IMG/VR virus record: IMGVR_UViG_3300027969_000114
Span: 1-59,277 of that record
Length of the DNA stretch: 59,277 nt
Reading direction: 5' to 3' (one strand)
Origin: a virus
In this document: piece after piece, positions 15,718 through 57,240 of the stretch
How the letters are laid out: each line of letters opens with the position of its first letter
How positions within the stretch are numbered: the stretch's first letter is position 1
The notes under the pieces: model-generated
Seen by the model: only the letters and a program-made list of their open reading frames with translations
What the model was told of the DNA's origin: nothing
The model's database searches: none
Program-made: the position numbers and the translations under genes

Positions 15718-16149
15718 TTAAAATTTAATTGCTTTAGCGTCCGTGTTTTCTCTAATCTTATCTACTTCGTTTTGGTTATTATCGTAGTGAGTTCCAATTT
15801 CTAAACGTTTAACGGTCTCCCATTTTAAGCTTCCATTAGTAAAGTAAACTCTTGAGCGTGGAATCCCTAACTCGTCCGCTACCTTATAAACTTCTTTGCT
15901 ATCGCTTTCTTGTCTTCTAGTAATAATGTAAACGGTCTTATTGTCGTTCATTAATCTCTTAGCAATATCTTGCCCTCTTTGAGTGCTAAGCGTGTCATCG
16001 AAATCAAAAGACACTTTATTACCTTGCGCTTCAAGGCTACCGCTTGAGATAATTGCGACATATACTTCTGTCGCTTTTTCTTTGGTATCATATTGACATA
16101 AGCCAGAGCCAATTCTCCATTTACCATTTGAACATTTAATTACTGGCAT
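15718..16149 (-). CDS. HAD-like phosphatase domain protein
   Basis: A 143-residue protein. Residues 1-33 (MPVIKCSNGKWRIGSG...) form a short module seen at the N terminus of many phage proteins. It is followed by a HAD motif SFDFDDTLS near residues 47-55, with the nucleophile Asp and the general acid two residues later, then ITRR as motif II. Acidic residues for motif IV are less clear. Nucleotide or DNA-end phosphatase activity is possible. Present only in unit A, beside the terminase genes where unit B has the IbrA/B cassette. Confidence 0.75.
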   Translation of the reverse strand: MPVIKCSNGKWRIGSGLCQYDTKEKATEVYVAIISSGSLEAQGNKVSFDFDDTLSTQRGQDIAKRLMNDNKTVYIITRRQESDSKEVYKVADELGIPRSRVYFTNGSLKWETVKRLEIGTHYDNNQNEVDKIRENTDAKAIKF

Positions 16150-29700: not shown

Positions 29701-29874
29701 AAAGTTTCCTACTAAGGAATTGATATTTATCTCAACTACGCTAGGAGTTACGTTTAAAACTATGTCCTCTCTATTGTCTATAATATTGACATCTATTACC
29801 TCATCGCTTCCGCTAGAAGTAATCGTAATTAAATTAGTCGTTTCGGTAACTATGATGTCTATAATATCTTCCAT
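26716..29874 (-). CDS. Tail fibre with S74 intramolecular chaperone
   Basis: A 1052-residue fibre. Repeats of YLPLAGGTLTGAL and related Gly/Thr/Ser segments form the shaft. Long beta-helical-like stretches follow, and the C terminus (about 955-1052) is a peptidase S74 domain with SARFKDNI, FLGLIAEEVAEV and a closing coiled coil. S74 domains trimerise the fibre and cut themselves off at a Ser. The first 126 codons and the last 75 match the partial fibres at the window ends. The gene shares A-type codon use, suggesting it belongs to the A lineage. Confidence 0.9.
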   Translation of the reverse strand: MEDIIDIIVTETTNLITITSSGSDEVIDVNIIDNREDIVLNVTPSVVEININSLVGNFGVNWGQIGGTLTNQTDLNTVLGLKADLVGGLVPSSQLPSFVDDIIEVATFGALPVTGEQGKIYVVLATNLIYRWSGSAYIEIKDSSAVWGAITGTLSSQVDLQNALNLLVPYTGATTNVNLGSNNLTVNNIFDGFSSVTASGTQIVLTVASVPSYLVNGSGGQTIKLPDATTLPKGAVYIFNNNQSSGAITVNNNSNTLIVSIPSGGYAQVELTDNSIAAGSWDRHFQAPSNVSWSTNTFDYAGSITSATWNGVAVAINRGGTGATTSGAALTNLGAQAQLNGTGFVKASGTTISYDNSTYLTTSAASSTYLPLAGGTLTGALNGTSVSLSSSITASALFVTGMTAGSGAIYHTGSRLTFANYNPSGTLHFEVNGGVGALTLNSDKSATFENSITATSFIKTSGTSAQFLKADGSVDTSTYALDSAVVHLTGLETITGLKYFFAGSKHDLLFVSETVGYASQAGYSHFKANTNHVEFINSTNTKATKFIHGNAAYEFTMPNSSGTIALTSNLSAYLPLSGGTLSGALSGTSATFSGQIASQSTALSGVAITIQATSTNAVPIAITNRNSNKRFDLIIDVNAVDDGFFGIYDRTVGAFRQVITSAGNVLINGTSSTSSVALLQVFGSTTASTNNGQLRVNDSVTTSKTLSIGVDGANNLAFLQSFQDGVAYRSLILNGLGGNVGIGTTAPGYKLSVVGPNGGNGISWTDNANNTGYLGIRGGSAASIGADNNLVFETAATERMRITSDGIIQLSTTASIPTTNNSIYSYSGNGYLYIQGGSTGLGLSASGSRNNIIYVNETSNFIRFDVNSAERMRITSGGNVGINTTGSSSIKLIVCGQDGGSSNYAFVAADNLGNTRFGVRNDGAIYAPGVYNFTTSSVANVVVFSDGSMQRSTVSSARFKDNITDWNASGLNTILALKPKEFTYKKDYYRYSDKKFLGLIAEEVAEVSSYLADFANEDGSGQVENVRYANIVVPLIKAVQELEAKIKILENK

Positions 29875-43307: not shown

Positions 43308-44516
43308 TTAGTAGATGAAATACTTGCCTCTATTGGGATTAGACAAGTGATAGAAGACGTTGTAACGTATGGCATCCATAGCGTGGTTAAAGTCATCGAC
43401 AATAAGTCCTGATTTTCTATCCGTGTATCTGTAGTTGTTAAGTTCCTTTGCGACATTGACTGAGTTTGATTCTACTATTATTTCATAATCCTGCATTAAA
43501 GCTATACCAGCCGTTATGCTACCTGCTCCTTTTTCGGTTGCTATTATATTACATCCCTTAGATGCAAGCTCAGATATAAGTCTAGGCTCAGCACTATCCC
43601 CTACGATTAATGAATTACCGCACACATCATTGTTTATTTTGCATATCTCGGACGTTGTTAGCTTCGGAGTATACAAATGCTCTTTAACATATATCTTGTG
43701 CTTAGAGCGATCTATTGCAACCTCAATTAAAGTGGTCGGATCAATAGAGAATCCAAAGTCCTGACCGAAAGAAGTTTGCAAGGTATCTGGATTAAAGTCT
43801 CCAAATCTCCAGTTAGTAAATACTACACCCTCTGCTTTATCTAGCCAACCACCTAATATCTGATGCGTGTACTTTTTAGGGTTATGGCTTTTAAGCCGTT
43901 CGATCTCATCAATAAAGGATTGATCTAAATGCTTTATGTTATCTAAATAGGTAGTGTGTATATATGTTACATTATTCTTTATACCATTATATCCTTCTTC
44001 TACACCCTGACTTTGAAAGAATCGGTTATAGATCCAATGCTCTTTGGTCGCAGGGTTTAGGATTAACACTACTCTATTCTGAACACCCTTTTGACGAATA
44101 GATAAATTAATCTTGTCAAAGGTAGTTTCGTCTACAAGCTCTTCGGCCTCATCTAGTATCCAAGTGGTTACACCTTGCAATGATTTAAGGTTTGCGGTCT
44201 GATCTCCGCTTGAAGTCTTTAATCCCCTAAATAGAATCTCGCTTCCTGATTCCTTATTTATAATCTCTGATTTCGTAATATGAAATAAGTGTTCCGTATC
44301 TAATAGCTCTATCTTCTCTTGAAACTCAGGTATAATAGATAGATGTGCAGATGTCATAGTAGATCGGGTAAACAAAATCTTATGCCCTTTCTCAAAAGAT
44401 AAGAGGCTGGCAAATGTGCCAACCCCAAATGACTTTGAACTACCACGACCTCCTGTAACTACAAAGAAGCGTGTCTGATTCCATAACGATTTATATTTCG
44501 GACTGAGTTGTATCAT
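43308..44516 (-). CDS. terL: Terminase large subunit, unit B
   Basis: A 402-residue protein if started at MIQLSPKYK (44516), matching A; an in-frame ATG 21 codons upstream runs through the small terminase. GGRGSSKS replaces GGRGSGKS in Walker A. TTWILDEAEEL and the nuclease blocks FGQDFGFSIDP, LIVGDSAEPRLI and NHAMDAIRYN are intact. It overlaps the small terminase by 26 nt. Confidence 0.95.
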   Translation of the reverse strand: MIQLSPKYKSLWNQTRFFVVTGGRGSSKSFGVGTFASLLSFEKGHKILFTRSTMTSAHLSIIPEFQEKIELLDTEHLFHITKSEIINKESGSEILFRGLKTSSGDQTANLKSLQGVTTWILDEAEELVDETTFDKINLSIRQKGVQNRVVLILNPATKEHWIYNRFFQSQGVEEGYNGIKNNVTYIHTTYLDNIKHLDQSFIDEIERLKSHNPKKYTHQILGGWLDKAEGVVFTNWRFGDFNPDTLQTSFGQDFGFSIDPTTLIEVAIDRSKHKIYVKEHLYTPKLTTSEICKINNDVCGNSLIVGDSAEPRLISELASKGCNIIATEKGAGSITAGIALMQDYEIIVESNSVNVAKELNNYRYTDRKSGLIVDDFNHAMDAIRYNVFYHLSNPNRGKYFIY

Positions 44517-44871
44517 CGTCAAATTTAAATACGTCTTGTACTTTAAACTCTTTAACCGTATGAGAATTAACACTCTCAATATGTTGCATCGATAACTGCT
44601 TTAATTCGTCCTGAGTAGCAATCAGTTTCATAAGCCCCATTTGTAATGTAGGATTATCTGACTTATACCACTTAGATCGCATAGAGACTTTAATCTCAGT
44701 CTTTACTTTTGTTAAAGCATCTTTTATATCGTCTAATTTGTCTAATTCAAGATTATAAAATGTAGCTCTTGAACAAGGCAAATAGGATATAATGTCATCT
44801 ATAAAAAATAGTTTGTTCTTGTTAATCGCCTCTAATGCGGAGGCAATCAGTTCTTCTTTATTGTATGCCAT
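44491..44871 (-). CDS. Putative terminase small subunit, unit B
   Basis: A 126-residue protein. The N-terminal helix-turn-helix (SALEAINKNKLFFIDDIISY..PCSRATFYN) fits DNA recognition in packaging. Unrelated to the A small terminase except for the ending (VKEFKVQDVFKFD here). Overlaps the ibrB-like gene by 14 nt, linking the modification-like cassette to packaging. Confidence 0.65.
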   Translation of the reverse strand: MAYNKEELIASALEAINKNKLFFIDDIISYLPCSRATFYNLELDKLDDIKDALTKVKTEIKVSMRSKWYKSDNPTLQMGLMKLIATQDELKQLSMQHIESVNSHTVKEFKVQDVFKFDDDTTQSEI

Positions 44872-45505
44872 TTTCTTCTTCGATTCTATATTTAATCATA
44901 TTCTTTGTTTCCCAAGCCTTCTTGTATTCTACGCTTTCGAATAGCTTTGAGAATCCAGTTATGTGCTTTAGCTTTAATAGCTCTTCGGGTTGCATCCCTA
45001 GCTCATTACAAATGTCGTTATCTTTCCATCCATTTTCTAGCATTTTAAACACCATATTTGACATACCTGATACTGAGTGGCTTCCTCTAGCTCTGTTGTG
45101 TCTAACCGTACTTGCCATACGATCATTAATGTCCTTGTTAATAACAACAATAGGAAGGCATCCCTGATTACGATTTAATATATCTGCATTATTCTTGCAA
45201 GTAAAGTATCGGTGAAATCCATCTACGATTGTATACATATCTTTCTCGCTATCGTAAATTGTAACAATAGGTTGTGTGTAACCATCGTGTAAGATGCTAG
45301 TGTATAGCAATCCCATTTCGATATTAGCGACTGCATTTGGATTATAGTCGTTAGGGGTTACCTTGTCTATATTTACCCAACGTACCCTATCTACGGGCTG
45401 TTCTTTTAATGGGCTTTTCTTATGTAGTGCTTCACGTATTGATTCAATAGTGCTTAAATCTAATTCAGCATTCTGAATATGCTTTAGAATTTCATTTGGT
45501 TTCAT
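44858..45505 (-). CDS. ibrB: IbrB-like ParB-domain protein
   Basis: A 215-residue protein with a ParB/sulfiredoxin-like domain: VRWVNIDKVTPNDYNPN, DGYTQPIVTI, IVDGFHRYFTCKN and VRHNRARGSHSV, then helices (ICNELGMQPEELLKLK). The order IbrA then IbrB with a one-base overlap is that of the ibrAB pair first described as prophage regulators in E. coli. Biochemical activity is unknown; some ParB-domain proteins hydrolyse CTP or cut DNA. Confidence 0.8.
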   Translation of the reverse strand: MKPNEILKHIQNAELDLSTIESIREALHKKSPLKEQPVDRVRWVNIDKVTPNDYNPNAVANIEMGLLYTSILHDGYTQPIVTIYDSEKDMYTIVDGFHRYFTCKNNADILNRNQGCLPIVVINKDINDRMASTVRHNRARGSHSVSGMSNMVFKMLENGWKDNDICNELGMQPEELLKLKHITGFSKLFESVEYKKAWETKNMIKYRIEEENGIQ

Positions 45506-46671
45506 TATTGCTTTTTAAATTGTGGAACGTATTTGTTATAAATGTAAGTGTATTTGTTAATTATACCTTTCTTAAATTTCTTGTAGGTATTTACGTTTGC
45601 ATTAATTTTCCAGTTTAGGAATTTAGTATAATCCCAATCGCTAGAAAGGATCGTGTTGATCATAACCCTATTAAAGTCAATGCTTATTTCTGGATCGCAG
45701 AACTCTTCATTAAACTTATTGTATTTAGCTATAAATTTAGTGTAGTTCTTTTCGTCTTGAATTATGTTTTTAGCTAGGTGCAATGTGTATTCGCTCCAGT
45801 TATTAAACATAGTTGGATGTACTTTAGGACATACAAAGGCTTCGTTCTTTAGGTGTTTAATTGTATTCGCTCCATCGATACGCTTAGATATTTTCTCCCA
45901 AGTAGGTGGCTCGATCTCTTGTATTAAAAGCAGGGCTTGTATTGCTGTTTCGTGGTGTACGTTTGAGATCCGCATATCTTTAATTACGACACCGTATCTG
46001 TACATCTCGTTGTACACGTTATTGTAATCCCATTTGTTTTTAAATATCGCTGCCCAAACATCTGAATAAGACCAATCGTATAATGGATAAAAAGTATAAT
46101 GCTCTTGCTCTTTAGATAGTATTTTGCCCCAAGTAATATGCTTATAGGTTCGATCCTCAGTTAATACCATAGCTCGCTTTGGGCTTTCCTCTGCTCTTAC
46201 ACCTGCTAGGTAGCAACTCTTTACTCCTTTAAAGTGGTAATTAAATATCTTGCCAAACAATTCGTGAAATCTATTAGTGCCATAGTTATTCTCCTTAATA
46301 GATAAATCGTTTTTAGGATGTATCCAGACATCTTCTTTAGTTACATCCCAGCAGTAAGAATAGCGTTCGTAAGAGCTAGCGTTGTTCGTAATTACCATAG
46401 GCATTTGAAACCACATAGGTTCTACACGAGGATCTTGCATAATCTTTGTGCAATAATCTACCGTTCCCTGCCATTCGGCTTCCTGATCTATCCATAATAC
46501 TTTTAATGGTAGTCTATTTCTTTGCTCTGCTACGATCAAAGCTAAATTTAGGGTGCAGGTACTATCCTTGCCTCCGCTAAATCCTACAACAACGTTTTCA
46601 AATTCGTCAAATAGGTAATTCATCCTATCTAAGGCATCGTCAAATACGTTTTTGGTTTTATAAATCTTCAT
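45505..46671 (-). CDS. ibrA: IbrA-like PAPS reductase-family protein
   Basis: A 388-residue protein. The ATP-pyrophosphatase P-loop SGGKDST begins near residue 32 (VVVGFSGGKDSTCTLNLAL), followed by VLWIDQEAEWQGT. The C-terminal half (WEKISKRIDGANTIKHL) resembles the DUF3440 segment found in IbrA homologues. The fold adenylates a substrate, as in sulfate reduction, tRNA thiolation and DndC-type DNA phosphorothioation. It overlaps the methyltransferase-like gene by 14 nt. Confidence 0.8.
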   Translation of the reverse strand: MKIYKTKNVFDDALDRMNYLFDEFENVVVGFSGGKDSTCTLNLALIVAEQRNRLPLKVLWIDQEAEWQGTVDYCTKIMQDPRVEPMWFQMPMVITNNASSYERYSYCWDVTKEDVWIHPKNDLSIKENNYGTNRFHELFGKIFNYHFKGVKSCYLAGVRAEESPKRAMVLTEDRTYKHITWGKILSKEQEHYTFYPLYDWSYSDVWAAIFKNKWDYNNVYNEMYRYGVVIKDMRISNVHHETAIQALLLIQEIEPPTWEKISKRIDGANTIKHLKNEAFVCPKVHPTMFNNWSEYTLHLAKNIIQDEKNYTKFIAKYNKFNEEFCDPEISIDFNRVMINTILSSDWDYTKFLNWKINANVNTYKKFKKGIINKYTYIYNKYVPQFKKQ

Positions 46672-47233
46672 AAATATCGCTTATAAATTTGATGCACTTA
46701 CTATTGTAATCAGACATAACAAATTTCTTATTCATTTTCTTAAATATCCTGCCTGTGTTTCCGTAACCACAGCAAAAGTCTCCTACACAATTAAACTTAG
46801 ATGCTATATTTAATATAATAGCAGTTGTAGTGCTATGCATACCATCAAAATTATAGTTGTAAACGAATGCTTTTGCATTAGCCCCATTAATTTTAGTATC
46901 TAGTACCTGATGTGGCTTTTCTATTTTGCTCATAATCTTAATGCTACCTATAATAATCATAGGCACTTTAGTGATTTTGATAATAGAATTAACTGCTGTA
47001 ATGTACTGAGTAAAATCAAGGCTTGCGTTTGCTCTCTTGTTAAACTTTTCTAGTCCATCGATCCAGCTAATCTCTGTGTAAAGTATATCGCATTTATTAA
47101 ATACATTAGGTATACCATTAAGCACATTGTTTGCTAGTGCTATATTGCCATCCTTTTCAAAATAGTCTAAGTTTCCGTTTACCTCGATTGGATCGTGTAA
47201 TGCAGAATGATAGGGAAATTTTTTAGTTGCCAT
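46658..47233 (-). CDS. Permuted methyltransferase-like protein
   Basis: A 191-residue protein with an AdoMet-site-like motif GDFCCGYGNTGRIF near residues 151-164 and an acidic SDYN at 174-177, near its C terminus. A possible catalytic strand CDILYTEISW lies at 48-57. Catalytic motif before the AdoMet motif is the permuted order of some amino-methyltransferases, but the usual DPPY is not intact, so methylation of adenine or cytosine is uncertain. Starts 11 nt before the glycosyltransferase stop. Confidence 0.6.
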   Translation of the reverse strand: MATKKFPYHSALHDPIEVNGNLDYFEKDGNIALANNVLNGIPNVFNKCDILYTEISWIDGLEKFNKRANASLDFTQYITAVNSIIKITKVPMIIIGSIKIMSKIEKPHQVLDTKINGANAKAFVYNYNFDGMHSTTTAIILNIASKFNCVGDFCCGYGNTGRIFKKMNKKFVMSDYNSKCIKFISDIYEDL

Positions 47234-47972
47234 TTAAGATAAAGTTATTGGTTGTGTGCATCTGAACAGCTAGCTTATTAAACTTAGTAGTTTTGTCTGA
47301 TTCATAATACTCATAACCTGATGGAGAAACTATTGTCGTATTTACATATTTAAGCATATCGTTTTGCGAATTGCCTAGATTAGCGTTCTCTTTTAATGCT
47401 TGCTTGTAACCTCCCTTAGATGTTCCCTGCTTGTGGTATGCGTAACAGGATCTAGTTCGGTAATTCTTGTAACCATTAATGTAAGATTTGATGCAAATAT
47501 CCCATTCATCAACGCTATTGTAAGGAGTAAACTTCCCAATAGAATGAAATACATCTTTTTTAATAAACCAGCCACCGCCTTTGTAAACAAAATTAGACTG
47601 AATAGCTACATTCATTCTTTTAACTGAATTAATTATACGGGTAATTGATACTAAACCAGTATCGTTTTTAGCTAAAAGGCTAAATATATAATTGTCTATA
47701 ACCGTATCCTCTGTAAAATAGACATCGTCGTCTGTAAATAAATATGCTTCTGTCTCAGGAAAACATTTGTCGGCAATAGATACACCAAAATTAAAAGCAT
47801 TTGTTAGTGGCATCTGAGCTGTATCCACAATTACAACATTAGGCTTTCTGATTATATCTGTGCTATCTGATAGGCTTACAATAACTATGTTGATCCAATC
47901 AGGCACAGAATTAATTAGCCTATTGCAAATATCGTTTCTCTTATAGGTCGGTGCAATTAAGGTTATTTTCAT
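47223..47972 (-). CDS. GT2-like glycosyltransferase, unit B
   Basis: A 249-residue GT-A fold enzyme. ITLIAPTYKR opens the nucleotide-binding fold, and a DDD motif (YLFTDDDVYF, Asp81-83) binds the metal-sugar nucleotide. A later KGGGWFIKKDVF and VDEWDICIK support acceptor and catalytic base positions. Unrelated in detail to the unit A glycosyltransferase. The acceptor could be DNA, a virion protein or host envelope; its place among ParB and methyltransferase-like genes favours DNA. Confidence 0.78.
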   Translation of the reverse strand: MKITLIAPTYKRNDICNRLINSVPDWINIVIVSLSDSTDIIRKPNVVIVDTAQMPLTNAFNFGVSIADKCFPETEAYLFTDDDVYFTEDTVIDNYIFSLLAKNDTGLVSITRIINSVKRMNVAIQSNFVYKGGGWFIKKDVFHSIGKFTPYNSVDEWDICIKSYINGYKNYRTRSCYAYHKQGTSKGGYKQALKENANLGNSQNDMLKYVNTTIVSPSGYEYYESDKTTKFNKLAVQMHTTNNFILNGN

Positions 47973-48244
47973 TCATTCTCAATTAAAGTGCGATTAATGA
48001 TTCCGCTACCATCGTTAATAGTCATTGCCCAATACTTGTACTCGCCTAAATTGTAATAGGTATAGATCCGATTAAAGAATCTTTTTTGGTATCCATTTGC
48101 ATTAATGTATTTAACAACCTCGCTGTAAAGCTCTTTGTTATCCCATTTTTTTTCTAGTGTATACCAATGTGGTATTTTAGGCATTGACTTTGCAAATGTA
48201 TAATCAATGCTGTTTAGAATTTTGTCTGCTGTTTCCTTGTCCAT
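47969..48244 (-). CDS. Unknown protein in the modification-like cassette
   Basis: A 91-residue protein (MDKETADKILNSIDYTFAKSMPKIPHWYTLEKK...) with many aromatic residues. It overlaps the glycosyltransferase by 4 nt and is 1 nt from the ParB-like gene, so is cotranslated. No family recognised. Confidence 0.6.
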   Translation of the reverse strand: MDKETADKILNSIDYTFAKSMPKIPHWYTLEKKWDNKELYSEVVKYINANGYQKRFFNRIYTYYNLGEYKYWAMTINDGSGIINRTLIENE

Positions 48245-48245
48245 T

Positions 48246-48782
48246 TTACTTTGTTTTCATAATAAAAAATTCATTTGCACATTTAGGACAAATTACTTCT
48301 ATTAAATCGTCCTGAGTATTCATTTCTCCCATACGCTCATTTAGCTCTTTAGTAACTTTGTCAACGTTTTCCTCTGTTACCGCCTCGTAATTAGTGCTAG
48401 GATTTAGGACTGGATTATAATCAGGAATATCCCATTGAATTAAACCCCAGTCTTTTAATTCTGTTGTATCCCATTCGTTAGCAAGTGCATCCCAATCCCA
48501 TTCGCCTCCGCTAATGTTATCCTTAATTAAAAACTCTTTTTGCTTTGCTTCGGATAGGTCTGTAATAATAACTGGGATCTCTTTGATGCCAGCCTCTAAG
48601 CAGGCTCTATATCTCATATTCCCTCCTAGTATAATCATTTCCTGATTAACAACGATAGGTCGAATAGAAAGCATTTCTGGGAAATCCTTAATAGATTTAA
48701 CTAGCTTTTTAAATTTGTCATCCTTAATCGTTCTAGGATTATTAGGATTAAGTTTAATGTCTGTGATTTTTTTGATTTCCAT
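48246..48782 (-). CDS. ParB-like domain protein with C-terminal zinc motif
   Basis: A 178-residue protein. The ParB N-terminal pattern is complete: IKLNPNNPRTIKDDKFKKLV, IRPIVVNQEMIILGGNMRYR and IPVIITDLSEAKQKEFLIKDN. The C terminus has CPKCANEF, which with other residues might bind a metal. Such proteins often precede phage DNA methyltransferases. A second ParB-type gene lies 3 kb downstream at 44858, so the cassette carries two. Confidence 0.82.
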   Translation of the reverse strand: MEIKKITDIKLNPNNPRTIKDDKFKKLVKSIKDFPEMLSIRPIVVNQEMIILGGNMRYRACLEAGIKEIPVIITDLSEAKQKEFLIKDNISGGEWDWDALANEWDTTELKDWGLIQWDIPDYNPVLNPSTNYEAVTEENVDKVTKELNERMGEMNTQDDLIEVICPKCANEFFIMKTK

Positions 48783-48783
48783 A

Positions 48784-49146
48784 TTAGTATTCGTTATAAA
48801 TTCTTCTTAAATCTCCTATCATATCCCTCCAGCAAGATGCACAAGATGTGTCAGTAAATGGTACTCTAAAAACACCTAAGTAAACAGCTTGTAGCTCTCT
48901 TTGAATTTGTAATCCAATTGAATTTGGATTGGTTTTAAAAAATTCATTTAGATAATTGTAATCTGATTCGGCTAGACAATTAGGTTTTTTGTAAGGAAAG
49001 ATCCTGTTTAATGCCTCTTTGCGTTCTTCGCATCCGCAATCCCAATCTAGGGCTTTTGACAATGCTTCTACTCCTGCTTTAATTCCTAATGCTTCGGTAA
49101 GGTTTTCAACTGAATCGCCTAGACCTTTTGATTTTCTTTTTGCCAT
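48784..49146 (-). CDS. Conserved Cys-containing protein linked to sigma-like gene, unit B
   Basis: A 120-residue homologue of 16136-16570. KALDWDCGCEERKEALN and CASCWRDMIGDLRR are retained; the extension at the A N terminus is absent. Overlaps the sigma-like gene by 28 nt. Confidence 0.65.
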   Translation of the reverse strand: MAKRKSKGLGDSVENLTEALGIKAGVEALSKALDWDCGCEERKEALNRIFPYKKPNCLAESDYNYLNEFFKTNPNSIGLQIQRELQAVYLGVFRVPFTDTSCASCWRDMIGDLRRIYNEY

Positions 49147-50784: not shown

Positions 50785-51542
50785 TAGTCTATTGCAGATA
50801 TTTTACCTTCTGCTGTTAGGTATGCTTTAAAGTCTGCTAAGTTTTCTACAAATTCCTTGTAACATTGAGCCTTGCAAGCCCAAAGTAGTTCGTCTTTGTC
50901 TTTATATTTAGGCAATAAGGACAAATATATTCTTTTTTTATCTTCCTCGTTTGCCTCATAGATGTTAAATTTTACTATGCTGTCATATAGCGAGTGCAAA
51001 CCGCCTGCAATCCATACCATTTTTATGCTTTTTTCTTGACATCTTATGATTTCCTGAGAATACATATTTGCAATATTTATTGCTGTCATTTTTTGATCTT
51101 CTTCACTTGGGATAGGTGCTACTTCTTCGATCTGTTTTACAACTAATTTAGTCTCTTGCCTAGCAAATTCTATATAGGCATTCATAATTCTACTAAAATA
51201 CTCGCAAGAAAAGTTTTCGTAACACTTTGCATCTACGTTTAGCTTGCCTGCAACAGCATATTCAAATGCTAAAACTATTTCTTTGGCTGTTTGATTACCA
51301 AAATTTGATTTAATAAATTTAAGTAGAACGTATTTCTCTTCTTCTATTGGTAAATTATTGCCTCTTAGCCCTACAAATAACATTGCGTAGCGTAGAGCCT
51401 GCTTTATCTCCTCTTCGTCGCTCTGTCGCAAAGTATGGTGGCTCTGTGCCTCGACAATAGCATTAGCTAGACCGCTACCAAATGTTAAGGCTCGTGATTC
51501 GGTCTTTACTAGTTCCTGTTTTTGCGTTGTTTGAATTTCCAT
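50784..51542 (-). CDS. Putative replication protein (helicase-loader position), unit B
   Basis: A 252-residue homologue of 19650-20411. The N-terminal 35 residues are different; FVGLRGNNLPIEEEKYVLLKFI and AKCYENFSCEYFSRIM are conserved. Overlaps the DUF4373-like gene by 68 nt. No ATPase motif. Confidence 0.5.
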   Translation of the reverse strand: MEIQTTQKQELVKTESRALTFGSGLANAIVEAQSHHTLRQSDEEEIKQALRYAMLFVGLRGNNLPIEEEKYVLLKFIKSNFGNQTAKEIVLAFEYAVAGKLNVDAKCYENFSCEYFSRIMNAYIEFARQETKLVVKQIEEVAPIPSEEDQKMTAINIANMYSQEIIRCQEKSIKMVWIAGGLHSLYDSIVKFNIYEANEEDKKRIYLSLLPKYKDKDELLWACKAQCYKEFVENLADFKAYLTAEGKISAID

Positions 51543-52158
51543 TTTGACTAAACTTATTTTTATTTAACATCCACGTTGTAATTCTTCTTTTAATATCAAA
51601 GAACTTTTCCATTTCCCAGCGTTCTTTACCTTTAGGATTTTTTTCTGTCCAATAAGAAAAGAAATTATTGTACTCAGATCCTAAATCATTAGTGTGAGGC
51701 GAAAGCATTTCGCTAAAAGATACTATACTTTCTTTTTCTTTTATTTCATTTACTTTACTTTCCTTTCCTTTCCTTTGTTGAACGGTCGTTGAACGGTCGT
51801 TGAGCAATCGTTTATCGGCCGATGCTTTACCTGCCATTTTACGCTGTTCTTTCATCTTAAAGTAAGGTTCTAAGTAAACTAGCATTTTAGGCGAAAAGAA
51901 CTTTTCTGTTTCGTCTATTTCAAATAATTCGTAGTTACATACACAAACTCTGACTTTTGCCTCTGAGACGCTAAATTCTTCTGCTAATAGGTCTAGGTCG
52001 CTTAGGGGATACATAAGGTCTTGTTGCTCCCTTAATGTCTCTAATAGCATAAAGTATATGCCGTAACCCTCTGTTCCTAGTTCTCTTCTTAATCGCCTAA
52101 TTTTTCGATCGTGTCTTGCATTACAAAAATGCGGGAAATAATACGCTTCTTTTTCCAT
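51475..52158 (-). CDS. DUF4373-like replication initiator protein, unit B
   Basis: A 227-residue protein. EAYYFPHFCNARHDRKIRRL then LGTEGYGIYFMLLETLREQ is a typical DUF4373 N terminus, clearly recognisable and yet not alignable to the A protein beyond the fold pattern. A low-complexity Lys/Glu stretch precedes the C-terminal helices. The same structured leader lies 12 nt upstream as in A, so gene and leader have separate histories. Confidence 0.72.
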   Translation of the reverse strand: MEKEAYYFPHFCNARHDRKIRRLRRELGTEGYGIYFMLLETLREQQDLMYPLSDLDLLAEEFSVSEAKVRVCVCNYELFEIDETEKFFSPKMLVYLEPYFKMKEQRKMAGKASADKRLLNDRSTTVQQRKGKESKVNEIKEKESIVSFSEMLSPHTNDLGSEYNNFFSYWTEKNPKGKERWEMEKFFDIKRRITTWMLNKNKFSQNGNSNNAKTGTSKDRITSLNIW

Positions 52159-52167
52159 TTTAAAATA

Positions 52168-52243
52168 AAAAAAGCCAGCTTGCGTAGGAGTGCAAAACTG
52201 GCTTGGTTGGTTTTTAACCCTAAAATAACCGAAGAACTCCTAC
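52168..52243 (-). ncRNA. Structured leader: attenuator-like hairpin with loop-complement 8-mer, unit B
   Basis: 8-mer GTAGGAGT (52243-52236) then, 31 nt later, a hairpin with stem AAGCCAG/CTGGCTT, inner stem TTGC/GCAA and loop ACTCCTAC, followed by TTTTTATTTT. The inner stem differs from A by a base change that keeps pairing (A has GCAG, a U-G pair). The between region GGTTATTTTAGGGTTAAAAA is the same in both. Confidence 0.78.
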
Positions 52244-52276
52244 CCTCTTCGCTTATTTATTCAAATATATAAACAC

Positions 52277-52546
52277 TTATCTAGGTTTACAAGTCCGAAA
52301 CTCAAAATATCCTATGTACTCAGGAAAATCATTTTCAAACTTTCTAGCATAATCTGCTGTATAATTATTGTTTACTTTAAAATCGTCATTGCGATCTATC
52401 TTTGCATCCCATCTGATGCGTTCGCAAATTGCTTTAGATCCTATACTAGTTGCTCTTGAATGTATCGCCTCAAAAGCGTAGTGTACATAGGCTCTATATA
52501 TTAACGGATTTTTTACGTGATACTCTTCGAATGTTAGCTTTTTCAT
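52277..52546 (-). CDS. Conserved early protein, unit B
   Basis: An 89-residue homologue of 21174-21440, with ICERIRWDAKIDRNDDFKVN and NYTADYARKFENDFP. It ends 34 nt before the structured leader. Confidence 0.7.
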   Translation of the reverse strand: MKKLTFEEYHVKNPLIYRAYVHYAFEAIHSRATSIGSKAICERIRWDAKIDRNDDFKVNNNYTADYARKFENDFPEYIGYFEFRTCKPR

Positions 52547-52631
52547 AAGGTCTGATTAATTTAAGTTTTAGAAGATCAATTTGTAACTGATTAGCTAGGT
52601 GTGTTTGCCATTGATTAAAAGTTAGCTTCAT
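52494..52631 (-). CDS. Conserved 45-residue basic microprotein, unit B
   Basis: Translation starts MKLTFNQWQTHLANQLQIDL and ends RRVSRKKSVNI, overlapping the 89-residue gene by 53 nt. The conserved FNQWQ and SRKKS elements match the A copy at 21400-21528. Confidence 0.72.
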   Translation of the reverse strand: MKLTFNQWQTHLANQLQIDLLKLKLIRPYEKANIRRVSRKKSVNI

Positions 52632-52635
52632 AATT

Positions 52636-52863
52636 TTATGCGTTTAAATTAAACTTATCTGCTTTAGCTTCGTGCTTGTCGATGTTAATATAATAAATTT
52701 CATTGATAACTTCCTGATAATACGCTGTATCTTCTTCGTTATCAGTTTTCTCATTTATGATTTCCATTACTGCTATGATGGCACATTTAGTTGCTAGTTC
52801 TCTGTTTTGTAAAATGATATTAAATCTATTTACAAGGAATTCGGCTTTAGATTTAGGTATCAT
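52636..52863 (-). CDS. Small helical protein, unit B
   Basis: A 75-residue protein (MIPKSKAEFLVNRFNIILQNR...). Its place and opening residues parallel the 62-residue protein of A. Acidic C-terminal half. Overlaps the 84-residue gene by 4 nt. Confidence 0.58.
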   Translation of the reverse strand: MIPKSKAEFLVNRFNIILQNRELATKCAIIAVMEIINEKTDNEEDTAYYQEVINEIYYINIDKHEAKADKFNLNA

Positions 52864-53114
52864 ATTTTGCTTAATTTAATTATGTTCCAATTTGGGATTC
52901 CAATCGTTTTGTTTACGAGGCTAGGATGATTAAAAATAAGAGTTCTTTGACCTTCGGTTGTTCCTACTAATCGGCTCTCAAACTCATCGTTATAATTACC
53001 TAGCTTGTAATCTAAGTGGTATATTTCGCCTATTGAAAGCTTGTAGTTTTTAACTTCGTAAATGTTAATTTCATTGCCACTTTCTGATTTTAATACTTCT
53101 ACTATGTTTCTCAT
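52860..53114 (-). CDS. Unknown small protein, unit B only
   Basis: An 84-residue protein with beta-strand-like segments (VKNYKLSIGEIYHLDY, FESRLVGTTEGQRTLIF). It holds the place of the KOW-like protein of A but no sequence similarity is visible. Confidence 0.55.
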   Translation of the reverse strand: MRNIVEVLKSESGNEINIYEVKNYKLSIGEIYHLDYKLGNYNDEFESRLVGTTEGQRTLIFNHPSLVNKTIGIPNWNIIKLSKI

Positions 53115-53130
53115 TTTATTTTTGTTTAGA

Positions 53131-53328
53131 TTATGATTTACCTTCTTCGTAATATTCGTCCATTAATTCCCTTAATTCTTTAGTCACTTCTGGGTAGTTT
53201 ACCTTGCCATAAACGGCCTGCTGTACTAGCCCTGATGACCATTCTCTTGCACTAAAAGGTAGAATACCTTTCTTATTTAATCTATCAGCTACTAACTGAT
53301 ATGCAAACATTTTTTTAATTTTCGTCAT
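53131..53328 (-). CDS. Small conserved DNA-binding-like protein, unit B
   Basis: A 65-residue homologue of 22072-22266, with LVADRLNKKGILPFSAREWS and QQAVYGKVNYPEV retained. Overlaps the upstream gene by 14 nt. Confidence 0.65.
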   Translation of the reverse strand: MTKIKKMFAYQLVADRLNKKGILPFSAREWSSGLVQQAVYGKVNYPEVTKELRELMDEYYEEGKS

Positions 53329-53671
53329 TTTCTTCGTTTTTTAAATTATAATCTTTGTACGGTCTTTCTCCTATAATTTTGTATCCTTTCCAAAGTTGCT
53401 CTTGCTCATATTTATTATAGTCTTCGAGCGACACAAATCTTTGTACCGTTGTAAAATAAGCTCCAAAAGTTCCTTTTAAATCTAGCAATAAAACTATTGG
53501 ATAAACTTGTGTTATTTCTTTTATAGGATCTTCGGATATTAATAAAAATCCGTCTTTCATCCACGATGCGATGTATAAATGATTCTCTAATTCCGTTTCA
53601 AAGCCTTTAGTTACTTTCCAAGTATTGGATGGGGCTTTAAAAAAAGTATATGTTAGCCTTTCCTTATACAT
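53315..53671 (-). CDS. Conserved early protein, unit B
   Basis: A 118-residue homologue of 22272-22601 with LTYTFFKAPSNTWKVTKGF and LLLDLKGTFGAYFTTVQRF. The C terminus is longer by nine mostly acidic residues. Start shares one base with the SSB-like stop. Confidence 0.65.
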   Translation of the reverse strand: MYKERLTYTFFKAPSNTWKVTKGFETELENHLYIASWMKDGFLLISEDPIKEITQVYPIVLLLDLKGTFGAYFTTVQRFVSLEDYNKYEQEQLWKGYKIIGERPYKDYNLKNEENDEN

Positions 53672-53949
53672 TAGAATGGTAGATCAGATGCTGGAAAATT
53701 AACGTTTTGCTTTGGAAGGTTTGAATCATAAACTACCTTGCCATTTCCTATGTATATTTTAGGAGTCTTTGCATCACGCTCGTCTTTGGTTTGTGAAACC
53801 CAGATAGATGCATTATTCCCGTATTGATCGGGAGTGTCGTTTAATGAGATGGTAATATTTACCGATTCGTCATTTGTTTTTTTGTTCGTGTAGTGAACTA
53901 AGTCTGTTAATTTTGACTTGTTGATCTGAGCATTAATTAATTGTCCCAT
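53671..53949 (-). CDS. SSB-like protein with DLPF tail, unit B
   Basis: A 92-residue homologue of 22603-22905. The core SVNITISLNDTPDQYGNNASIW is unchanged; the linker is shorter and the end is ASDLPF. Conservation of just the core and the tip is what the SSB layout predicts. Confidence 0.56.
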   Translation of the reverse strand: MGQLINAQINKSKLTDLVHYTNKKTNDESVNITISLNDTPDQYGNNASIWVSQTKDERDAKTPKIYIGNGKVVYDSNLPKQNVNFPASDLPF

Positions 53950-53950
53950 T

Positions 53951-54493
53951 TTAAGATAGTTGTAGTTTACGTGTTGTTAAAAAATTAAGTACTTTTTCGT
54001 CTCCTGCCATTACTGATTCGTTGGCTATGTAGAGCATTGATAATTCATTAAGTGTTTTGCAATCGTCTATGATTGCCTTCCAATCTGTTTCTCCGTTTTT
54101 CATTGGATATTTTTTTGCGACTGGTACGCTAGATCCTGATGCATCCGTATCTTTGTCGGTTACTAAACCTAGCAAACTCGATATGGAGTATCTCCGAAAA
54201 TAGGAAATCCCCGCTCCGATGCTCTGAAATTCATTCATTGCTCCTAGTTTTACCGTAGGAATGCTAGTAAACGATTCTAGCTGTTCGCCTGATTCAACGT
54301 GAAAAAGAATTGTTCTGATTCCATCGTTTTCGAGTAATTGCGTAAAGCATAATTTATGCTTTTTTAGAAGTGGATTAATTACGCTAAAAATCTGTGGTAA
54401 ATCAGCGTAGGTGTAGTTGTGGCCTTTCGTATCCTTATGGATAATCGGACACTCGTTTTGAAATTCCGCTAGGGATTTAATTAAGTTTTTCAT
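53951..54493 (-). CDS. erf: ERF-family single-strand annealing protein, unit B
   Basis: A 180-residue homologue of 22907-23428. The first 120 residues are nearly identical up to LLGLVTDKDTDASGSS, then the tail changes to a different C-terminal helical region (CKTLNELSMLYIANES). Tail variation outside the annealing core is common in the family. Confidence 0.88.
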   Translation of the reverse strand: MKNLIKSLAEFQNECPIIHKDTKGHNYTYADLPQIFSVINPLLKKHKLCFTQLLENDGIRTILFHVESGEQLESFTSIPTVKLGAMNEFQSIGAGISYFRRYSISSLLGLVTDKDTDASGSSVPVAKKYPMKNGETDWKAIIDDCKTLNELSMLYIANESVMAGDEKVLNFLTTRKLQLS

Positions 54494-54498
54494 TTGAT

Positions 54499-54741
54499 TT
54501 AGGTTAAAATTATTTGAAAAGGTATTTCGTTAAATATAAAGTCAAATTCTACAAATCCATTGGTGCTAATTTTAGGTGCTCCGTATTTGTTTGCAATTAC
54601 TAATGGATCTTTATTGCTATATCCCTGCATTGTAACGTTGTGAGTATAAATACTAATTAAGTAAAAATAATTGCTATCTAATTTTGACTCTTCTAAAAAG
54701 TCTGCTACTGCTTTAAATTTGGTTTCCATTGAGTTTTTCAT
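54499..54741 (-). CDS. Unknown early protein, unit B only
   Basis: An 80-residue protein (MKNSMETKFKAVADFLEESK...), with a second possible start at METKF. It overlaps the 57-residue gene by 29 nt and precedes erf, a place where A has no separate gene. Beta-rich C terminus. No family known. Confidence 0.58.
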   Translation of the reverse strand: MKNSMETKFKAVADFLEESKLDSNYFYLISIYTHNVTMQGYSNKDPLVIANKYGAPKISTNGFVEFDFIFNEIPFQIILT

Positions 54742-54886
54742 TTGAGATTATACGAATTAATTTTGAGTTTGATTTGTCCATTTCGTGAGCGACTAGCTCT
54801 GCAATAGTCCATAATTCTGGATCGTATGACAATGTCATTGTGTACGTTCCTGCTTTGTCTCTGAATTCTGCTTTTACGATCATCAT
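54713..54886 (-). CDS. Conserved 57-residue early microprotein, unit B
   Basis: Begins MMIVKAEFRDKAGTYTMTLS and ends IISNEKLNGNQI. It overlaps the 36-residue gene by 4 nt. Residue pattern K-A-x-F-x-D-x-A-G-x-Y-T-M and IISNEKLN is shared with A. Confidence 0.78.
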   Translation of the reverse strand: MMIVKAEFRDKAGTYTMTLSYDPELWTIAELVAHEMDKSNSKLIRIISNEKLNGNQI

Positions 54887-54993
54887 AGCCCTTGAACGAT
54901 ATAAAGTACTTGAAAGATAATGCCTACAAACGTTGCTAGTAACACTAGCTCGGTTAGGTCTTGCTTGTCGAAATTTTGGATGTAATTTCTCAT
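54883..54993 (-). CDS. Conserved 36-residue membrane microprotein, unit B
   Basis: MRNYIQNFDKQDLTELVL followed by LATFVGIIFQVLYIVQGL. Same length and membrane segment as 23570-23680. The stop overlaps the next start. Confidence 0.85.
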   Translation of the reverse strand: MRNYIQNFDKQDLTELVLLATFVGIIFQVLYIVQGL

Positions 54994-55079
54994 TTTTGAT
55001 TGTGTTTAGAATTGTTATGTCTTATTGACTTGTAAATATACTAAAAATATAATATAATAAAAACTTTTTATAATCTTTT

Positions 55080-55382
55080 TTACTCTTCATCGTAATTTTT
55101 ATCTAGCGATTCTACTGCCTCATCGTAACTATTTAAAAAGTGCTCTTCGCCTGTTTTAAAATCTGATGTGATATAATCAACTTCTTGCCCCATTGAAGAT
55201 CCAATGCTTATTCCGTTTTCTAATGCTATATAAACATAACCAGATAGGTGGTTAAAGCCTATTTGCATTATTTCTTCTGTTCCTGAGTATTTTGCGTATG
55301 CCTCAAAGCATTTTGACAAACCTAATGCTTCTAGGTATGCAATTCGATTATTTTGAAATCCGTGTAATTGTAAGTTTTCCAT
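55080..55382 (-). CDS. Unknown early protein, unit B only
   Basis: A 100-residue acidic protein (MENLQLHGFQNNRIAYLEAL...) ending EAVESLDKNYDEE. The high acidic content and early place are typical of phage host-interaction or DNA-mimic proteins, which is speculation. A short hairpin lies just before its start codon. Confidence 0.6.
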   Translation of the reverse strand: MENLQLHGFQNNRIAYLEALGLSKCFEAYAKYSGTEEIMQIGFNHLSGYVYIALENGISIGSSMGQEVDYITSDFKTGEEHFLNSYDEAVESLDKNYDEE

Positions 55383-55388
55383 TTTGTG

Positions 55389-55412
55389 TTACGGTTTACC
55401 TAAGCACCGTAA
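55389..55412 (-). promoter_or_regulatory. Hairpin before the 100-residue early gene
   Basis: TTACGGT, 10 nt, ACCGTAA gives a 7-bp perfect stem ending 6 nt before the ATG at 55382. No T-run follows, so translational control is more plausible than termination. Confidence 0.35.
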
Positions 55413-55422
55413 GGTTTAGTGA

Positions 55423-55797
55423 TTAAAGTCCTGTTATGTCGCCTACCATTAAGCTGTTGTCTGCTTTAGTAAATAAGCCTGCTAGTCTTCTGCCAGTAGG
55501 AGTCTTTTCAAATCGGTATGGGGCTTTCTTTAAATATTGATTGTCTTCGAGATAGTACGATTGCATCGGGTACGATGTTAGGGATGAGCAATAAGATACT
55601 TCTTGAATTACTCTAAATCCATCTACGATGTAGATTGCGTAAAGGGATGTAGATCCGTAAGAGATTTCCTCGCTAGAAAAGAATTTTGCATCTCTTTCTG
55701 CATATCTGTTTACGGTTTGAATCCAGATTCTGCGATTGTAATCGCTTCTTGTGTGATTTACTGCTTGGTCTAGGGATACTTCTACTAATGTTTTCAT
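55423..55797 (-). CDS. Unknown early protein, unit B only
   Basis: A 124-residue protein (MKTLVEVSLDQAVNHTRSDY...) with many Tyr and Ser in the centre. No counterpart in A and no family recognised. Its leader TTAGAATTAAT-type sequence resembles those of other early genes. Confidence 0.6.
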   Translation of the reverse strand: MKTLVEVSLDQAVNHTRSDYNRRIWIQTVNRYAERDAKFFSSEEISYGSTSLYAIYIVDGFRVIQEVSYCSSLTSYPMQSYYLEDNQYLKKAPYRFEKTPTGRRLAGLFTKADNSLMVGDITGL

Positions 55798-55815
55798 TTT
55801 GATTTTTGTTTAGAA

Positions 55816-56004
55816 TTAATATGGAAAGTATGATTTTGATTTTGGATTAGATATTTCGGCATTCATTTCTCGAATATTGTATATCTTTTGGACTGCTTTG
55901 TACTCTGCTTCTAGATCTGTGCATTTGCAGTATTCTATGTGAAACTGCTTTGTGTGCTTAAAAATTACTCTTTCTGTGTTTGTTAGAATTAAGATGTCTC
56001 TCAT
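55816..56004 (-). CDS. Unknown early protein, unit B only, promoter-proximal
   Basis: A 62-residue protein (MRDILILTNTERVIFKHTKQ...). It is the first gene after the early intergenic region of unit B. Charged, with a Cys-containing segment IEYCKCTDLEAEYK. No function assigned. Confidence 0.58.
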   Translation of the reverse strand: MRDILILTNTERVIFKHTKQFHIEYCKCTDLEAEYKAVQKIYNIREMNAEISNPKSKSYFPY

Positions 56005-56126
56005 TTTAGCTGTTTTTTAGGTATTCTGCCTTATTGCTCTGTAAAGGTAACAATAGTTTTAACAAATAAAAATCTTTTTTAATCTTTTTTTATATGTAGT
56101 GTAAAATAATTACTGATTAGGTTTTT

Positions 56127-56160
56127 AATAGGTAACCTATTTTTTACATATTTTTTACAT
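56127..56160 (-). promoter_or_regulatory. Operator-like palindrome plus tandem 11-bp repeats
   Basis: AATAGGT-A-ACCTATT is a perfect 15-bp palindrome (56127-56141). It overlaps two head-to-tail copies of ATTTTTTACAT at 56139-56149 and 56150-56160. Both lie in the early control region, upstream of the B early genes. A comparable palindrome is absent from A, which has a different inverted repeat. Confidence 0.4.
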
Positions 56161-56170
56161 ATATGCACAA

Positions 56171-56201
56171 AAAAGCCTCCAGACAGAATCCAGAGGCTTT
56201 T
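56171..56201 (-). terminator. Intrinsic terminator after lysis operon, unit B
   Basis: Minus strand AAAAGCCTC, 13-nt loop, GAGGCTTTT, then TTGTGC; the stem flanks can extend by CCAGA-type pairs. It lies 41 nt after the phosphoesterase stop. Confidence 0.82.
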
Positions 56202-56241
56202 AAAACACAATTCTAAACCTATTTATGAAAAACAACCAAAA

Positions 56242-57240
56242 TTACACTATTTTACCATCTTTAATTAAAAGATTAGAAACTTTTGTTTTGCCATCTATTA
56301 TTTCTACAACGGCAAAACCGTTATTGTGCTGTGCAAAAGGATAGTATTTAGGGCTTAATTGAGTTAGGCATCCAGCTGAATAGCTATGTATAAACTTTTT
56401 AAACCCAGTCTTTTTAATAGTATTTGTCGTACGATGTACGTGTCCAATCAGCGTATTACAGAAAGTCTTATTAAATGTGCTTTGCGAAGGATTCATTCCG
56501 CTTGCCATAATTTCGTGGCCGTGTAATATTAGTAAATCAGCTAATTCTATGCCTTGCCAATCAGGTACATAAATAATATTTAGCTTGTCTAGCCTAAAGA
56601 ACTGCTCAAATTGCATCTCGTGTAACTGAGAAAACTCTTCTGCTTGTTCGTTTAAATACTTTTGCCACCTGTTTTCGTGGTTGCCTAGCTTGTAATAGAT
56701 AGGAATATGAGAAAACAGATCTCTTAGTTTCTGTAGAAAGTTTCTGCCCATCTCTATTTCCCTTGGAAAGTCTCTTAGATCCTTTTCTTTTTCGTGTCTT
56801 GAGATAGAATAAAAGTCAAAAATATCTCCATTTAAAATTAGGCAGTCAATATTTTGTTCTCTTAAATGCTTAATTGCACACGTTATTGCACTAAGAGAAT
56901 GATATGGAACGTGTATGTCTGATAACACACCCACTTTTTTAAAATCATCTGTTAAAGTAAGGCTAGTATATTCTCTGCCTAAGCTATCTTCTATCCCAAA
57001 ATTATTTAATTCTTCTAAATTAAAATCAATAGATTCAATTTTAGTGTTAGGTCTTGTTTGTTTAAAATGCTCGCTTCTTTTTACTACACTTAATCCAAGT
57101 CTAGTAATTTTTTTATGAAATTGCTCTACGCTTGCATAGCCGTATGTATCCCAGTTTTCACGCTCAAAGTCTGCCCTTGTTAAATTAGTAGAATAAAAAT
57201 GATCTTTAATTGATTGACCTCTTTCTTTATCTGATTGCAT
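56242..57240 (-). CDS. Calcineurin-like metallophosphoesterase, unit B
   Basis: A 332-residue homologue of 23904-24893. Metal motifs SDIHVPYHS, LILNGDIFDFY, KLGNHENRW, LILHGHEI and IGHVHRTTN are intact (GDI replaces GDV). The N-terminal 95 residues vary most. Overlaps the u-spanin end by 14 nt as in A. Confidence 0.85.
   Translation of the reverse strand: MQSDKERGQSIKDHFYSTNLTRADFERENWDTYGYASVEQFHKKITRLGLSVVKRSEHFKQTRPNTKIESIDFNLEELNNFGIEDSLGREYTSLTLTDDFKKVGVLSDIHVPYHSLSAITCAIKHLREQNIDCLILNGDIFDFYSISRHEKEKDLRDFPREIEMGRNFLQKLRDLFSHIPIYYKLGNHENRWQKYLNEQAEEFSQLHEMQFEQFFRLDKLNIIYVPDWQGIELADLLILHGHEIMASGMNPSQSTFNKTFCNTLIGHVHRTTNTIKKTGFKKFIHSYSAGCLTQLSPKYYPFAQHNNGFAVVEIIDGKTKVSNLLIKDGKIV

Follow-up and report, generated by a model that had tools for sequence, protein, structure and literature searches.

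Phage genes of the PAPS (3′-phosphoadenosine-5′-phosphosulfate) reductase superfamily have been assigned several roles. In the portions of the literature covered here, phage PAPS reductases are described as metabolic genes and helpers of sulfur metabolism (PMC6145125, PMC8879888), the IbrA/IbrB pair (IbrAB) is described as possible virulence regulators (PMC4541368), and a resemblance to DndC is remarked upon (PMC8092301). DndC itself belongs to the Dnd phosphorothioation system, in which a PP-loop enzyme of this superfamily is accompanied by the ParB-superfamily protein DndB. Sections of a 2025 survey of the ParB fold report that methyltransferase fusions are enriched in prophages (PMC12704722), and ParB-domain proteins often lie near hypermodification genes according to excerpts of the paper on the CmoX/CmoY carboxymethylcytosine cluster of Synechococcus phage S-B43, whose two-step logic consists of placing a handle on the base and then making an ATP-dependent addition (PMC12783734). 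The present analysis concerns a cassette of six genes in the IMG/VR virus record IMGVR_UViG_3300027969_000114, of which positions 1 to 59,277 (59,277 nucleotides, hereafter the window) were analysed. The cassette codes for a ParB-like protein (ParB1), a 91-residue protein (p91), a glycosyltransferase, a permuted methyltransferase-like protein, and an IbrA-like and an IbrB-like protein. A key-term search of the literature, in the parts of the texts that were available, found no description of a ParB1-p91-IbrA-IbrB core, an earlier mention being possible.

The block probably represents one form of a modular phage island that hypermodifies the phage's own DNA after replication, a reading to which a probability of about 0.7 is given. 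Comparison of related loci, on sequence evidence, shows a core that is inherited together, decorating enzymes that are exchangeable, and a genomic slot held in common with a ParB-DNA-methyltransferase fusion. All six open reading frames (ORFs) were confirmed; they occupy minus-strand positions 48782 to 44858, and the coupling reported by the first-pass annotation holds: the successive spacings from ParB1 to IbrB are +1, -4, -11, -14 and -1 nt, i.e., overlaps of 1 to 14 nt and a single 1-nt gap. The order along the genome is sigma-like gene, p120, cassette, small terminase and large terminase, so that the cassette does lie upstream of the terminase, as first described, with p120 intervening after the sigma-like gene. 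The IbrB gene overlaps the small terminase gene by 14 nt, which couples the cassette to the packaging genes.

The window joins two phage genomes, unit A and unit B, the cassette lying in unit B. That the island would act on DNA is well supported by the comparison of relatives, and the best evidence for it is the gene that occupies the same slot elsewhere. In three relatives whose large terminase is 91-94% identical to that of unit A (L142, L155 and L144), the slot between p120 and the small terminase gene holds one fusion of a ParB domain with an N6/N4 DNA methyltransferase (PHROG 498; PF02195 + PF01555, the latter at 2.5e-19 to 1.7e-29). The ParB domains of these fusions are 68-78% identical to ParB1 of the window, the highest value, over 123 residues, being that of L142. 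In the window, however, ParB stands alone: the ParB domain is the only part of its 178-residue chain that matches a family, a methyltransferase domain is lacking, and the ParB_N domain is accompanied by a C-terminal CPxC motif. A PP-loop enzyme, p91, a glycosyltransferase and a degenerate methyltransferase replace the fused methyltransferase. The simplest history would be that ParB1 is the ParB half of a fusion-type DNA-modifying enzyme whose catalytic half was replaced by the block from p91 to IbrB. In unit A the slot contains a HAD-like phosphatase gene (window 15718-16149, motif VSFDFDDTLS), and in about half of the measured relatives it fits the small terminase gene only.

The island set is widespread among viruses. 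A search with IbrA yielded 33 viral loci and a p91 profile yielded 97, 80 of which were kept; hidden Markov models were built from these, and loci with at least 3 kb on each side were counted as full-flank, leaving 31 p91 loci after dereplication. The usual pattern is ParB1 - (SpeD) - p91 - cargo - IbrA - IbrB - terminase. Although the full-flank loci were fetched via p91 alone, IbrA, IbrB and ParB1 each occur in 30 of the 31, and the large terminase in 23; conversely, p91 is present in all eight full-flank loci anchored on IbrA. Neither IbrA nor p91 was found in any of 80 control loci anchored on the terminase of unit A. The distance correlation between IbrA and ParB1 reaches 0.89, vs. 0.66 and 0.74 for the two of them with the large terminase, the shuffled maximum remaining below 0.3. 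Co-occurrence of the genes therefore extends over many phages. The core consists of ParB1, p91, IbrA and IbrB, and the glycosyltransferase and methyltransferase are exchangeable cargo, so that the single six-gene pathway initially proposed is not supported. The cargo site between p91 and IbrA differs in content between islands and receives GT-A enzymes of two types, permuted DPPW methyltransferases, GNAT acyltransferases, class-I methyltransferases or a dioxygenase-like protein; many islands lack any methyltransferase. An alternative order, p91 - methyltransferase - IbrA - IbrB - ParB - ParB, often followed by a glycosyltransferase and then the terminase, is found in L026-L031. The dioxygenase-like cargo (170-190 residues, HxD...H pattern; L067, L068, L074, L075, L052, L053 and L102) has no Pfam match, and "2-oxoglutarate (2OG)/Fe(II) dioxygenase" is a label only.

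Some islands carry, between ParB1 and p91, a gene for an AdoMet (S-adenosylmethionine) decarboxylase-like protein, SpeD (PF02675, 3e-22; L011-L018, L020-L022, L024, L025, L039, L048 and L059). Its residues S70, H75 and C90 are invariant and match S63, H68 and C83, given as the catalytic residues of the Thermotoga maritima enzyme in the part of PMC10407285 consulted; AdoMet, ornithine or arginine is the putative substrate. Aminopropylation by SpeD and a methyltransferase was rejected as a general mechanism, since SpeD islands L012, L022 and L024 have no methyltransferase and the window has no SpeD.

In cultured phages, the pair and the core are distributed differently. IbrAB lies beside an SNF2-like helicase gene in FCL-2 (L124) and CHPC877 (L126), where ParB1 and p91 are absent; adjoins ParB and the terminase in Athena, Salgado and Taranis; and adjoins a gene annotated as a DNA methyltransferase in L338C. 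Nebkiss (L125) has IbrAB without ParB1 or p91, alongside an annotated DNA helicase, and so has 23T (L123), alongside a gene of about 400 residues of unknown type. Among the cultured phages examined, IbrAB occurs without p91 except in the Microbacterium group, where Hendrix and Leaf possess an equivalent island with a p91-methyltransferase fusion, a glycosyltransferase, an acyltransferase and IbrA, to which Hendrix adds IbrB, two ParB1 genes and the terminase. Searches of cultured phages with p91, the glycosyltransferase and the methyltransferase by tblastn gave no matches; the fused p91 of Hendrix and Leaf was found by the p91 profile. The first-pass annotation had named the regular occurrence of IbrAB without the other four genes as a sign against its proposal. 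This is partly the case, as IbrAB occurs without p91, glycosyltransferase and methyltransferase, either with an SNF2-like helicase gene, with ParB and a methyltransferase, or nearly alone; the four-gene core is nevertheless tight where viral p91 exists.

The IbrA and IbrB of the window correspond in domain architecture, adjacency and order to the pairs known from phages and prophages, i.e., a PAPS_reduct + DUF3440 protein with a ParB-like one immediately after it; they differ from them in being set in a larger core with ParB1, p91 and cargo. IbrB matches Pfam ParB_N at 4e-4 only, under the Pfam cut-off, and PHROG 2159 (ParB-like) at 1.3e-70; it has a DGFHRY box and an invariant C166, with 57-69% identity over 35 sequences. 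In 41 IbrA sequences, the PP-loop SGGKDS (S32, G33, G34, K35, D36 and S37) is invariant, as are 44 residues in all, which suggests that IbrA is catalytic. A search of the Protein Data Bank (PDB) with the single IbrA sequence returned no match, whereas its profile matched CysD (1zun, E 1.2e-6) and FAD synthase (8rom, E 3e-6) as the nearest solved structures, over short and partial stretches; IbrA departs from these adenylyltransferases by its DUF3440 region and its DNA-linked phage context.

The annotation of IbrA/IbrB as "co-activators of prophage gene expression", which the available part of PMC4541368 connects to E. coli IbrAB, would fit a regulatory cassette in which the pair regulates or co-activates late or lysogenic genes and the glycosyltransferase and methyltransferase are unrelated morons in between. 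This best-surviving alternative is unlikely, as the invariance of the PP-loop implies that IbrA is catalytic, the pair has constant partners in p91 and ParB1, the cargo consists of enzymes only, cargo and core proteins are fused in relatives (a glycosyltransferase homologue to IbrA in L017, and p91 to class-I methyltransferases in nine records), and the slot is common with DNA methyltransferases.

Somewhat less probable still is that a DndC-like sulfurtransferase performs backbone phosphorothioation or base thiolation. IbrA does match DndC models (8.1e-11 and 9.5e-9), and Dnd systems include DndB, a member of the ParB superfamily, in the accessible portion of PMC10853773; the same portion describes DndC with a cysteine dyad, whereas the 41 IbrA sequences contain neither an invariant cysteine, such as the catalytic one of PAPS reductase (CysH), nor a co-varying pair among the partly conserved ones. 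This speaks against persulfide chemistry and, with it, against thiolation. The cassette proteins show no match to cysteine desulfurase, DndD or DndE; DndA is likewise lacking from the cassette and no dndBDE neighbours flank its IbrA, and simple thiolation would leave the decorating cargo without a role. Thiolation or phosphorothioation was consequently rejected as a lead, as was classical PAPS reduction, for want of conserved IbrA cysteines and of a desulfurase. With neither an invariant cysteine nor a sulfur donor gene in the cassette, adenylyl transfer is the more likely chemistry of IbrA. The hypermodified or thiolated base of the initial proposal is therefore retained in its first half, hypermodification of DNA being the best reading of the co-occurrence and slot exchange, and made unlikely in its second.

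The cargo of this phage comprises two enzymes. The glycosyltransferase has no significant sequence-family match, and its structural model (predicted local distance difference test, pLDDT, 70.8; poor past residue 182 and mostly below 50 in residues 183-232) matches GT-A enzymes in Foldseek, with B4GALNT1 as the best hit (E 2.5e-9) and 211 matches at E ≤0.001. A DDD motif and a C-terminal His are conserved across 27 relatives, in keeping with a GT-A fold with DxD, so that the model and motif together predict a GT-A glycosyltransferase. Enzymes structurally close to it have glycans and proteins as substrates, and GNAT and 2OG-like enzymes can modify proteins, all of which would suit modification, by glycosylation or otherwise, of a phage structural protein or of a glycan on the host surface, the ParB-like proteins then being neighbours without a part in it. 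The slot exchange with ParB-DNA methyltransferases, the constant ParB proteins and the DPPW methyltransferase cargo speak against this, and it is improbable, ranking just below thiolation.

The methyltransferase-like protein scores 0.055 with PF01555, below threshold, whereas relatives reach 2.9e-7. SAM-binding motif I is kept, in permuted order (GDFCCGYGNTG in the C-terminal half aligns with DPFAGIGAT); motif IV, DPPW in most relatives of the family alignment, is EISW rather than (D/N/S)PP(Y/W). In its subfamily, (E/A)PP(W/Y) replaces DPPW, often in tandem with a DPPW copy (L061, L103-L107 and L045), while the window copy stands alone, with no tandem DPPW partner; a viral scan with it returned only the same phage. 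The pairs or triplets in L061, L103-L107 and L045, one member having DPPW and another EPPY, ELSW or APPW, recall METTL3-METTL14 heterodimers. An ordinary methylation island, in which ParB1 and this protein methylate DNA next to an independent anti-defence or metabolic set of IbrAB, p91 and glycosyltransferase, has in its favour the ParB-methyltransferase fusion in the slot of relatives and is the least probable reading weighed, given the degenerate motif IV, the many islands without a methyltransferase and the near-total p91-IbrA linkage.

As a mechanism of DNA hypermodification, the following steps may be envisaged. ParB1 and p91 would bring the machinery to DNA, and IbrA would activate a base with ATP via its PP-loop, by adenylyl transfer of the kind known from TilS or CysD, with IbrB as a nucleotide-using ParB/Srx partner. 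The activated base would receive a small nucleophile, and cargo enzymes would complete the group, in this phage through a sugar added by the GT-A enzyme; the chemistry is thus probably ATP-activated adduct formation followed by glycosylation. Speculatively, an amine in the first adduct would account for SpeD (a source of an amine or decarboxylated AdoMet) in some islands and for the GNATs (which would require an amine) in others. Before packaging, the product would shield the DNA from host nucleases. Among the unit B genes scanned, nothing pointed to modification at the nucleotide level, neither a nucleotide-modifying enzyme nor a DNA polymerase being matched, so that modification would need to occur on polymerised DNA. 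The two-step logic is that of CmoX/CmoY, but the window cassette has no cytosine C5-methyltransferase, CmoA or AMP-ligase, and activation would fall to a PP-loop ATPase. A more specific proposal, tentative and rather less than evenly probable, is that the core is a previously undescribed DNA-modifying machine performing TilS-like base adenylation in polymerised DNA and attaching an amine or other small molecule, which swappable glycosyltransferase, GNAT, methyltransferase or dioxygenase-like modules diversify.

The family of p91, with 54 sequences, is defined by the motifs PH, YKYW and INR and the invariant residues A18, M21, P25, H26, W72 and N84; its AlphaFold2 model (pLDDT 92.8) has no fold match in the PDB. 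In several Polaribacter, Flavobacterium and Tenacibaculum genomes (L113, L114 and L117-L119), the p91 domain is C-terminal in DUF488-like proteins of about 240 residues, and several of these genes adjoin a small-terminase-like or resolvase gene.

Several points weigh against hypermodification of DNA by the island. No chemical evidence or experiment on DNA modification was found for any relative; IbrAB is annotated as a pair of gene-expression co-activators; and glycosyltransferases and GNATs can have protein or polysaccharide substrates. Of the 11 occurrences of p91 in bacterial genomes, 10 lack IbrA, and in several p91 is fused to a DUF488-like region; p91 is therefore a more general module. 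With EISW in place of DPPW, the methyltransferase-like protein of the window is doubtful as a functional methyltransferase and possibly inactive; it may instead serve as a binding subunit, or the group that it transfers may be another one. Finally, dereplication was rough, and several island copies come from nearly identical records. On balance, the earlier interpretation is partly supported, being right in kind (DNA hypermodification) and wrong in detail, with no fixed six-gene pathway and thiolation unlikely.

Table 1. Position and supporting evidence of the cassette genes and their flanks in the window.
Feature	Coordinates	Strand	Details
ParB1, core gene 1	48246..48782	-	178 aa; PF02195 (ParB_N) 9.6e-12
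p91, core gene 2	47969..48244	-	91 aa; 54-sequence family
Predicted GT-A glycosyltransferase, variable cargo	47223..47972	-	249 aa; motif and structure match
Permuted N6/N4-type methyltransferase-like protein, variable cargo	46658..47233	-	191 aa; family alignment
IbrA-like PP-loop ATPase (PAPS reductase/CysD superfamily) + DUF3440, core gene 3	45505..46671	-	388 aa; PF01507 2.5e-14, PF11922 1.8e-6
IbrB-like ParB/Srx-fold protein, core gene 4	44858..45505	-	215 aa; phrog_2159 1.3e-70
Small terminase subunit, downstream flank	44491..44871	-	homologue 69-72% just before the large terminase in L142, L144, L155
Large terminase subunit, downstream flank	43308..44579	-	PF04466 3.1e-36
p120, upstream flank of slot	48784..49146	-	49.6% identical to unit A copy; marks slot in L142, L144, L155

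Coordinates are collected in Table 1; p91, the glycosyltransferase and the methyltransferase-like protein have no Pfam match above threshold, and p120 is conserved in unit A and relatives. The two genomes joined in the window, of about 29.6 kb each, also exist as standalone IMG/VR records: G002 (unit A; 29624 bp), corresponding to window 5-29628, its end (28896-29624) being window 28900-29628 at 100%, and G001 (unit B; 29671 bp), which is window 29506-59176 at 100% identity. They overlap at the join by 123 identical bases (window 29506-29628), and the ORF at 26716-29874 that spans it is probably chimeric. Segments common to both units are 68-84% identical. None of the six cassette genes is present in unit A, as originally noted; since the units are two different phages, this absence is a comparison between sister species. 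The nearest relatives of the terminase, from a Nonlabens phage (64%) and a Riemerella phage (48%), suggest a Bacteroidota host. Elsewhere in unit B, window 52100-56300 holds a series of short uncharacterised ORFs, which surround an Erf-like annealing protein (53951-54493) and a replication-initiation-like protein (51475-52158).

The neighbourhoods described here point phage PAPS-reductase/IbrA genes to DNA modification, and not to sulfur metabolism or co-activation. An equivalent island being present in Hendrix and Leaf, the hypothesis of DNA hypermodification is testable in cultured phages. If true, it would mean that phages already cultured contain a range of new DNA bases and a new ATP-dependent base chemistry and, should the combinatorial reading hold, that such bases form a combinatorial family across many phages.

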